IMG/VR virus record: IMGVR_UViG_3300018421_000203
Location: 1 to 24,124 of that record
Source of the DNA: a virus
Reading direction: 5' to 3' (one strand)
DNA: 24,124 nucleotides
Part shown: positions 17,178-20,716 of the stretch, one piece after another
How the letters are laid out: each line of letters begins with the position of its first letter
Position numbering within the stretch: the first letter of the stretch is position 1
Position numbers and translations under genes: made by a program
The notes under the pieces: model-generated
What the model was told of the DNA's origin: nothing
The model's input: only the letters and a program-made list of their open reading frames with translations
Databases searched by the model: none

Positions 17178-17873
17178 TTAGTAGCCTAACATTTCTTTTG
17201 TCATAATATAATCTCTTACAAAGTCTGACCTTACGATGTCTTCCCATCCAAAATTAATGACTGTAAAATTTCTCAATTGTTCAACAATTTGCATAAATTT
17301 CATAATACCGTTTTTGTCATCATCATACTTAAAATCACTTTGTTTATAGTCACCGCAAAAAATTATTTTAGAGTGTCTTCCGACTCTTGTGATTACAGAA
17401 TCTAATTCATGAAAATTAAGGTTCTGCATTTCATCTACAATTATAATAGAATTATCAAATGTTGTCCCGCGAATAAATGATGTAGATTCAAACATTATTT
17501 GTTTTGATGTAACCAATTTGTTATATGATGATTTATCACCAAACAATTCAGCACAGATAGCTCTATAGGGTGTAGTGAAGGCTTCTTCTTTATCTTCTTT
17601 GGCTCCTGGCAGAAATCCCATATCTCTTGTGGGTACCATTGATCGAATTATGACAACCTGATCCCACTCGGTTTCTTTATCAAGCATATCCTCTAATGCA
17701 AGATATAACGCCATAAATGTTTTACCAGTACCCGCAGTTCCAGCTAATACTAAATTGTCTCCCTCATCCCAAGCTTTATAAGCAATTTCCTGATTTTTGG
17801 TTAATGGGTCAAACTGAAGAAGATCATCCAATTTGACCGTCATGGAATTATTCTGAGTCTTGACTCTTTTCAT
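17178..17873 (-). CDS. phoH: PhoH-like P-loop ATPase
   Basis: 231 residues. Walker A GTAGTGKT (45-52), Walker B IIIVDE (143-148), and the PhoH blocks FLPGAKEDKEEAFTTPYRAI (87-106), MFESTSFIRGTTFDN and IFCGDYKQSD. PhoH proteins are the ATPase half of RNA-helicase/nuclease systems in bacteria; the phage gene is widespread in marine phages and its role is still uncertain. It lacks the N-terminal RNA-binding extension of E. coli PhoH, as phage versions do. Its ATG follows the previous TAA directly (TAAATG) without a clear Shine-Dalgarno, so coupling to the FmdB-like gene is likely. Confidence 0.93.
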   Translation of the reverse strand: MKRVKTQNNSMTVKLDDLLQFDPLTKNQEIAYKAWDEGDNLVLAGTAGTGKTFMALYLALEDMLDKETEWDQVVIIRSMVPTRDMGFLPGAKEDKEEAFTTPYRAICAELFGDKSSYNKLVTSKQIMFESTSFIRGTTFDNSIIIVDEMQNLNFHELDSVITRVGRHSKIIFCGDYKQSDFKYDDDKNGIMKFMQIVEQLRNFTVINFGWEDIVRSDFVRDYIMTKEMLGY

Positions 17874-18101
17874 TTAATTATTAATCGTGCTTCCAGGATT
17901 GTTCTTTTTAATTCTACCTAACATATTATTCCATTCTGATCCAGCTCTACGAAGAGTAGATGTAGTATCAGATACAAACTTGGCAGTAGAAAGTTTTTGT
18001 TTATACTTTCCTGTAGCCAATAATTCTTCTCGCTCTGCCAAAGACAGAACCATTTCATGTTCTTCGTTTGTTTCTATATCTATCATTGTGTATGATGGCA
18101 T
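17874..18101 (-). CDS. FmdB-like small protein lacking the zinc cysteines
   Basis: 75 residues. MPSYTMIDIETNEEHEMVLS corresponds to the start of FmdB-type regulatory proteins (MPTYxF), followed by LAEREELLATGKYKQKL and a C-terminal helix SEWNNMLGRIKKNNPGST. The C-x-x-C zinc pairs of bacterial FmdB are absent, as I recall for the cyanophage counterparts beside phoH. The start codon has no nearby ribosome site; a strong AGGAGGA is 33 nt away across a hairpin (see 18099-18140). PhoH starts immediately after its stop. Confidence 0.78.
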   Translation of the reverse strand: MPSYTMIDIETNEEHEMVLSLAEREELLATGKYKQKLSTAKFVSDTTSTLRRAGSEWNNMLGRIKKNNPGSTINN

Positions 18102-18140
18102 TTGTGTTAAGGGACTGGCTTGGCACCAGTCCCTCCTCCT
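18099..18140 (-). promoter_or_regulatory. Hairpin-bridged ribosome binding site for the FmdB-like gene
   Basis: On the - strand AGGAGGA (18134-18140) is followed at once by stem GGGACTGG (18126-18133), loop TGCCAAG (18119-18125) and stem CCAGTCCC (18111-18118), then nine bases and ATG (18099-18101). Folding removes 23 nt and leaves AGGAGG about 10 nt from the start codon. No T-run follows, so it is not an intrinsic terminator. T4 gene 38 is the known precedent for a hairpin between Shine-Dalgarno and AUG. Confidence 0.7.
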
Positions 18141-18142
18141 AG

Positions 18143-18292
18143 TTAAGTGGTTTCCAATTTAGACTTTAAAAAATCATGTTTACGTTTCAACTTAGATAAA
18201 AGATCCTTATTACCTCTTTGTTTGACTTTTTCCATATAACTGGTAAGTTCAAGTAAATCGTTTCTTAATCTATCTAGTTGTATTCTACTCAT
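18143..18292 (-). CDS. 49-aa coiled-coil protein
   Basis: 49 residues, MSRIQLDRLRNDLLELTSYM followed by EKVKQRGNKDLLSKLKRKHD and a short tail. Leucine/isoleucine spacing and charge suggest a basic helix or coiled coil. AAGGAG lies about 5 nt before ATG 18290-18292, and the gene fills the gap between its neighbours without overlap. The Shine-Dalgarno for the next gene begins 2 nt after its stop. Function unknown. Confidence 0.68.
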   Translation of the reverse strand: MSRIQLDRLRNDLLELTSYMEKVKQRGNKDLLSKLKRKHDFLKSKLETT

Positions 18293-19671: not shown

Positions 19672-20138
19672 CCCATTAATTTATCATAATCTGCTTTATC
19701 TACAATACCTTCTCTAAGCAGTTTTTCTCTGTTGGCCATATGCTTCATTTGGATCTCTTCCTTTGAACCGCCAAAGTAGGCTACGGCATGGCCTTCTTCA
19801 ATCATGATGTCTGTAACCTTCTCACGTTTACCTTCATAACGTTCAACCCAGAAATCTCCCAATACTCGGCCGAACTTACCCTTCATGTCTTCACCATCTT
19901 TGTCTTCAGTGGTAATAAGTTTGCCACCCTCACTTAATAATTCTTTTAGTCTATTCTTAGCAGCTGTGCCAAATAACTTTTCTACTTTATCACTTGTTCT
20001 GCTCTCGGGTGTATCAATGCCCATGATACGTACACGTTCATCTTTTAACCAAACACCAAAGCCCAAGTTAATATCAACGTCTACAGTATCGCCATCTACA
20101 CATTTTAATAGAACTACGTCATACTCGTTCGTATTCAT
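19668..20138 (-). CDS. Thermonuclease (staphylococcal nuclease-like, SNase fold)
   Basis: 156 residues. The SNase active-site residues are all present: KCVDGDTV (Asp at about 15 and 17), DERVRIMGIDTPES (Arg37, Asp42, Glu45) and KFGRVLGDFW (Arg91). The enzyme cuts DNA and RNA with calcium. There is no signal peptide, so it should act inside the host, for example in degrading host nucleic acid to supply nucleotides together with the RNR (inference). It overlaps the end of the GIY-YIG-like gene by 20 nt, and its stop codon lies in the RNase H promoter. Confidence 0.9.
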   Translation of the reverse strand: MNTNEYDVVLLKCVDGDTVDVDINLGFGVWLKDERVRIMGIDTPESRTSDKVEKLFGTAAKNRLKELLSEGGKLITTEDKDGEDMKGKFGRVLGDFWVERYEGKREKVTDIMIEEGHAVAYFGGSKEEIQMKHMANREKLLREGIVDKADYDKLMG

Positions 20139-20544
20139 TTTTTATTTCCTTTACGTGATTTTTATGAATTCTACAACTTATAATTCCATTATAAAAATCA
20201 TCGCGAAGTAATACGTCCAAGTCAAATTGGTATTTAGCCTCAAAGTATGAGCATTCACCTTTGGTCTTACATAACCTTAGAATCTCTCTTTTAAAGCTCT
20301 CTACGCCGTTATTTTCTACTAGTTCTTGTACTTCCTTACTGCTACCATAGTAGGTACGCCAATCGCTTTCTACGCGCGTTTTAACGCGTCTCTTACGAGT
20401 TTTTGTTTTGGGAAGTGTCTTGGGTTTCCAAAAGAATTTCTTACCTAAGTATTTTTTATTATTTGTAAGATCTGTTATGATATAGACAAAGCCCTGATAC
20501 TCTTCAGGCGTCTCATCAAACTCTTTATCATTGTATAGCCACAT
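20119..20544 (-). CDS. GIY-YIG-like endonuclease
   Basis: 141 residues from ATG 20542-20544. GFVYIITDLTNNKKYLGKKF (18-37) is a divergent GIY-YIG core (VY...YLG), followed by VESDWRTYYGSSKEVQELV with its Arg just before, and CSYFEAKYQFD, where the Glu of the family active site would lie. Proteins of this type are called putative endonucleases in T4-like cyanophages and may help to degrade host DNA. The longer frame from 20562 is rejected: it would start in the loop of a hairpin. AGGA for this ATG lies in the 3' arm of that hairpin, 10 nt upstream. Confidence 0.8.
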   Translation of the reverse strand: MWLYNDKEFDETPEEYQGFVYIITDLTNNKKYLGKKFFWKPKTLPKTKTRKRRVKTRVESDWRTYYGSSKEVQELVENNGVESFKREILRLCKTKGECSYFEAKYQFDLDVLLRDDFYNGIISCRIHKNHVKEIKNEYERV

Positions 20545-20573
20545 AAAAAAATAGTCCTGCATTTCTACAGGAC
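20545..20573 (-). terminator. Hairpin followed by U-tract just before the endonuclease start
   Basis: On the - strand AGTCCTG (20567-20573) pairs with CAGGACT (20552-20558) around an 8-nt loop, and A plus seven T follow directly, then ATG. It has the form of an intrinsic terminator for the RNR/zinc-ribbon transcript. The 3' arm also contains the AGGA of the endonuclease gene. Confidence 0.65.
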
Positions 20574-20581
20574 TATTTATA
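20574..20581 (-). promoter_or_regulatory. T4-type late promoter octamer TATAAATA
   Basis: On the - strand TATAAATA is a perfect match to the T4 late -10 element, which is read by the gp55 sigma factor with gp33 and the sliding clamp. It follows the zinc-ribbon stop codon and precedes the hairpin, so a late transcript would begin in or right at the stem. A gp33-like gene is present in this window, in line with such a system. Confidence 0.5.
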
Positions 20582-20716
20582 CTACTCTTCTAATTCTTCG
20601 TATTCAACAGAAAATCCACACATAGGACAATATTGTGGTATTTCATCTTCGTCGACTACTAATACCTGAGTCTCTACATCACAGGCATGACATTCTACCC
20701 AATATTCTTTTTCCAT
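20582..20716 (-). CDS. 44-aa zinc-ribbon protein
   Basis: 44 residues with two C-x-x-C pairs, ECHACDVET (Cys at 9 and 12) and QYCPMCGFS, in a compact zinc-ribbon or rubredoxin-like layout with an acidic tail (EYEELEE). AGGAGA lies about 4 nt before ATG 20714-20716 and it starts 8 nt after the NrdJ stop, so it is co-transcribed with the reductase. It could be a metal-binding partner or a small regulator; no direct link to NrdJ is shown. Confidence 0.78.
   Translation of the reverse strand: MEKEYWVECHACDVETQVLVVDEDEIPQYCPMCGFSVEYEELEE

Follow-up and report, generated by a model that had tools for sequence, protein, structure and literature searches.

A probable hairpin-bridged ribosome binding site ahead of an FmdB-like gene and phoH in uncultured marine phages

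The closest described systems are found in bacteriophage T4, where a hairpin between the Shine-Dalgarno sequence (SD) and the AUG of gene 38 shortens their spacing from 22 to 5 nt (PMC3014915), and a hairpin at gene 25 cuts it from 27 to 11 nt (Malys and Nivinskas 2009, as reviewed in PMC3014915). The gene 25 site is kept in close relatives and is missing in distant ones (PMC3014915). At the split site of Escherichia coli thrS, the ribosome accommodates a long hairpin in the leader, which is still folded (PMC3936740). An earlier note on the phage DNA analysed here had named T4 gene 38 as the precedent for a folded ribosome site upstream of an FmdB-like gene and phoH. No report of a hairpin-bridged site in a phoH operon was found in the literature searched, which was mostly open-access.

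The window, i.e. the whole 24,124-nt stretch that was analysed (IMG/VR virus record IMGVR_UViG_3300018421_000203), contains genes for RNase H and a DUF6433 protein, a 49-residue ORF, the FmdB-like gene and phoH, in this order (Table 1). Read on the minus strand, the FmdB-like leader consists of TAA, CT, AGGAGGA (18140–18134), GGGACTGG, TGCCAAG, CCAGTCCC, TTAACACAA and ATG, and the stop of the 49-residue ORF is located 2 nt 5' of the SD of the next gene. The coordinates and lengths given in the earlier note (AGGAGGA, an exact 8-bp stem, a 7-nt loop and the ATG 9 nt further on) all agree with the sequence, as does the linear SD-to-ATG spacing of 33 nt, which becomes about 10 nt on folding. The exact 8-bp core is present; the true stem is longer, with 11 bp that include outer A-U and G-U pairs and an inner U-G pair and enclose a 5-nt loop (GCCAA), or with 10 bp if the last G of AGGAGG pairs with rRNA instead. 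The gap between the hairpin and ATG 18101 is 7–9 nt, depending on where the stem ends. The ORF listing contains no further ATG, GTG or TTG in frame, in keeping with the single start recognized before. The absence of any other SD for the FmdB-like gene holds on SD scoring; a scored proximal SD is missing from about 20 other putative genes of the window too, which makes this absence weak evidence by itself.

Table 1. Positions of the leader elements and neighbouring genes in the window.
Feature	Position	Strand	Remarks
49-residue ORF (MSRIQLDRL...)	18143–18292	minus	own SD TAAGGAG; stop TAA 18145–18143
Distal SD AGGAGG	18140–18135	minus	−8.6 kcal/mol with E. coli-type anti-SD
Hairpin GAGGGACUGGU-GCCAA-GCCAGUCCCUU	18135–18109	minus	11 bp, −19.3 kcal/mol
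Arms of 8-bp core, GGGACTGG and CCAGTCCC	18133–18126 and 18118–18111	minus	
Loop of 8-bp core, TGCCAAG	18125–18119	minus	
TTAACACAA	18110–18102	minus	between 8-bp core and ATG
3' spacer AACACAA	18108–18102	minus	no SD, no U-run
Start codon ATG, FmdB-like gene	18101–18099	minus	
FmdB/Com-like small protein, 75 residues	17874–18101	minus	PHROG 385; start set by conserved MP[ST]YT N-terminus
phoH	17178–17873	minus	ATG straight after TAA of FmdB-like gene; no SD

At −19.3 kcal/mol, the hairpin ranks first among the perfect stems in the window's minus-strand RNA; the runner-up, at −17.0 kcal/mol, is a terminator with a U-run. Its fold energy corresponds to z = −2.9 and was equalled by 3 of 200 dinucleotide shuffles. 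When the 60-nt leader was shuffled 20,000 times, a perfect stem of −12 kcal/mol or lower appeared in 149 shuffles, and in 54 it lay within 13 nt of the start. Folded in a 300-nt context, the stem has a pairing probability of 0.87–1.0, and some of the SD is predicted to form weak pairs with RNA farther 5', a stretch that would be under translation; this pairing counts against a freely available distal SD. An Rfam search of the window returned one tRNA only, with no match above the gathering score for the hairpin.

The 49-residue ORF gave no match in Pfam and PHROG searches, and an ORF of 49–55 residues precedes nearly all hairpin-bearing leaders. The label FmdB-like, taken from the earlier note, is loose: the protein contains zero cysteines and no Cys-x-x-Cys zinc ribbon, has no Pfam match and matches PHROG 385 only. 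Its AlphaFold prediction is poor (pLDDT 66, pTM 0.29). The phoH gene does start right behind the FmdB-like gene, as stated previously, and in most hairpin-bearing relatives the FmdB-like stop and the phoH start overlap (TAATG). Since phoH starts at the FmdB-like stop and has no SD, its translation is probably coupled to that of the FmdB-like gene through this stop/start arrangement.

Four scans of viral contigs identified 217 sequences with an FmdB-like gene (some of them repeats), corresponding to 105 distinct leaders. The arrangement is borne by T4-like marine phages that form an uncultured family; the cultured phages found (HTVC008M, Ochrobactrum OC, Rhizobium I1_18, S-H38, phiM12, S-PRM1 and DLP_6) contain distant protein relatives only, and the hairpin is absent from them. 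In 24 leaders (class A), a strong stem lies at most 13 nt from the AUG, with an SD immediately 5' of the stem. In another 21 (class B), the stem is located 16–22 nt from the AUG; a strong SD 5' of the stem is usual, and most of these leaders have a second SD (AGGA) beside the AUG. Two SDs flank the hairpin in L041, L068, L070–L076, L080, L089, L091, L172, L178, L181 and L244, the last of these a class B leader on a contig within a Rhodobacteraceae genome bin. The remaining 60 leaders have a start region without a strong stem.

An alignment of this region among related phages had been proposed in the earlier note, with attention to the SD and to compensatory changes in the stem. In class A, an SD just 5' of the stem is kept in 24/24 leaders, a proximal SD is found in 0/24, and the stem covaries (see below). 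In a strict count, which was confined to Watson-Crick pairs because G-U pairs would score the G-runs of the stem as SDs, a distal SD of at least 5 nt is present in 22/24 class A, 19/21 class B and 4/60 stem-less leaders; the two class A leaders outside this count have TAGGGAG. The corresponding values for a proximal SD of at least 4 nt are 0/24, 17/21 and 44/60. Fisher tests of class A versus stem-less leaders gave 4e-14 for the distal and 1e-10 for the proximal SD, values that are uncorrected for relatedness and overstate the evidence because the leaders share descent. Additionally, a close stem leaves little room for a proximal SD, which partly accounts for the absence of one in class A. The SD-to-AUG distance in class A is 26–43 nt linearly and 7–18 nt when folded (median 12), and the folded distance in class B is 12–24 nt.

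Loss of the stem without a closer SD, which the earlier note had regarded as evidence against a folded site, is absent from most near relatives. A closer SD is found in the stem-less leaders L042, L055, L058, L060, L063, L067, L069, L088, L118, L132 and L133, and the one clear exception is L062, which has lost the stem and has a short leader with a weak TTGGAAA only. In a PhoH tree, classes A and B both lie inside a single large clade, within which the leader has passed from one class to the other several times; the tree gives only 8 changes for class A, at least 2 of which are forced by well-supported branches, and 9 and 6 changes for class B. As a separate observation, a 17-bp palindrome (GTGTCAGCTG...CAGCTGACAT) replaces the SD-hairpin 5' of the FmdB-like gene in L042, L055, L058, L060 and L118; it has an AT-rich 15-nt loop and is followed by a proximal AGGA.

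Covariation was counted in the nearest clade alone, because the stems of both clades are not homologous letter by letter and a joint alignment is unusable. Within the nearest clade, 98.9% of the stem cells are paired, two-sided changes occur at three pairs, and the covariation score exceeds those of all 500 shuffles and all slides. Pairing is retained in 87/88 cases in the mRNA sense and in 74/88 in the antisense, and the G-U pairs show that the strand predicted to be structured is the mRNA sense. Both the stems (GGGACTGG, GGGGTTGG, GGGACTAGC, GGGGGC and GAAGGG) and the loops (GCAA, GAAA, UUCG, UCCG and CUGUG) differ strongly among clades, such that the geometry is held while the letters of stem and loop are replaced. 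The combination is also specific to this gene. A scan of all retrieved loci (2.24 Mb, both strands, redundant) for an SD, a stem and a nearby ATG gave convincing matches at the FmdB-like gene only, and in longer contigs from six relatives (0.60 Mb) the other matches are weaker, chance-like and inside genes; the total of about 2.8 Mb counts both strands and includes overlapping and redundant sequence.

These results suggest that the leader is most likely a split, hairpin-bridged ribosome binding site of the type described for T4 genes 38 and 25. The SD lies beyond the linear functional distance, a stable stem-loop is situated between SD and AUG, no alternative proximal SD is present, and the folded spacing of about 10 nt is within the T4 range of 5–11 nt; the 7–18 nt of the relatives extend beyond that range at the upper end. 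The 30S subunit would bind AGGAGG right behind the stop codon of the 49-residue ORF, and the hairpin would stay closed as a spacer, reducing the path from SD to AUG from 33 to about 10 nt and allowing the AUG at 18101 to reach the P site. Ribosomes that have translated the FmdB-like gene would then probably move on to phoH, the AUG of which directly follows the stop or overlaps with it. From the comparison of leaders, we infer that ribosomes would initiate through the folded site, that the stem would be closed inside the 30S complex and that phoH would depend on the coupling. The stem is kept in presence and position but not in sequence. The SD is distant from the AUG in leaders with a close stem and near the AUG in those that lack a stem. 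This pattern fits the prediction of a closed spacer.

Bridging may not be the sole role of the SD-hairpin unit, since class B keeps the distal SD and the hairpin even though most of its members have a proximal SD, i.e. the unit persists where bridging is unneeded. In class B, these elements may act as a standby or holding site behind the short-ORF stop, or a lower stem may shorten the path in some members. A broader and rather doubtful idea is that the FmdB-phoH operon has long possessed the SD-hairpin as a translation module independent of sequence, which has changed repeatedly between a pure bridge with a single distal SD and a form with two SDs. In the latter, the fold might choose between a strong distal and a weak proximal SD and thereby set or regulate the dose of FmdB-like protein and PhoH. 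The suggestion of the earlier note that the stem acts as a switch setting PhoH dosage finds only indirect support here.

Ribosomes terminating on the 49-residue ORF could alternatively be held by the SD near its stop and restart at the FmdB-like AUG, with the hairpin acting as a road block or stabiliser. Such termination-reinitiation would be consistent with the conservation of the upstream ORF, whose stop is 38–51 nt from the AUG and near the SD in close-stem leaders, and with the many genes of the phage that lack an SD and abut the preceding gene. However, sliding over 40 nt would be hindered by the −19 kcal/mol stem, and a distal SD with a close stem but a proximal SD without one would be left unaccounted for. 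Reinitiation is thus unlikely as the explanation of this leader, but it is compatible with bridging, and the two could combine in one mechanism. Less probable still is an intrinsic terminator, or a stabiliser of the mRNA 3' end of the upstream gene, to which a GC-rich stem immediately after a stop codon might point. Stable tetraloops are frequent in terminators; however, the earlier note had already remarked on the missing U-run, and in all 24 close-stem leaders the longest T-run within 9 nt 3' of the stem is at most 2, while true U6–U8 terminators occur elsewhere in the same phages. A terminator would also leave the SD just 5' of the stem unexplained.

Very little credence can likewise be given to a protein-binding operator, in which the FmdB-like protein, PhoH or a host protein would bind the hairpin and repress or activate translation in the manner of Mu Com or T4 gp32/gp43. 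One relative of the FmdB-like protein is annotated as Com-like, and T4 has translational operators (PMC3014915), but the stem and loop sequences are both unconserved, the protein is devoid of zinc-binding cysteines, and its low-confidence predicted structure (pLDDT 66) lends no support. The AGGAGG is ideally spaced to serve a GTG within the hairpin (18126–18124), opening a short out-of-frame ORF, but this holds in the window sequence alone; most relatives have no start codon there, and the chance that this GTG is the true target appears negligible. Sequestration of the SD or AUG, as in T4 gene e, was rejected because the helix includes no more of AGGAGG than its last G, in the outermost G-U pair. 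A DNA palindrome is disfavoured by the G-U pairs that occur in the stem.

A second hairpin (20578–20549, followed by a U7 run; region 20542–20588, minus strand) is located near the ATG of the gene at 20119–20562 in the window. In related loci, a hairpin with a U7 run ends right at the ATG of the counterpart of this gene. The sequence TATAAATA, the same as the consensus of T4 late promoters, overlaps the 5' arm, where TAAATA is kept in relatives, and the 3' arm contains AGGA. This element looks like a terminator combined with a late promoter. Late transcripts would then lack the 5' arm, which would leave the ribosome site accessible, as is the case for T4 gene e. The true start of the gene may be the ATG after the U-run, at about 20541.

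Bridged initiation is documented for two T4 genes; at the locus described here it would be kept in many phages while the letters of the hairpin change. The leaders constitute a well-conserved natural series for a single gene, which comprises five or more stem types, a number of loops, hairpin-less kin and a two-SD class, and this native series makes the rule that folded distance counts and sequence does not directly testable. Gene finders and ribosome-site calculators that are based on linear spacing will misjudge genes with bridged sites. Marine phages are widely surveyed with phoH as a marker gene, and translation of phoH probably depends on the folded site.

As in thrS, a long leader hairpin would be accommodated without unfolding; in contrast, the thrS leader is multi-domain and its essential single-stranded ribosome-binding region is separate from the hairpin. 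The site shares with T4 gene 38 a hairpin between SD and AUG that shortens the spacing, but its linear spacing is longer (33 nt), and gene 38 was tested by mutation whereas the phoH-side site is predicted from sequence comparison. It differs from T4 gene 25 in the gene and phages concerned, in the complete turnover of the stem sequence, in the location of the SD, which immediately follows the stop codon of a short ORF, and in the existence of a two-SD class. In both, however, a hairpin lies between the AUG and an over-distant SD and, once folded, shortens the distance, and the arrangement is kept in close relatives and missing in distant ones.
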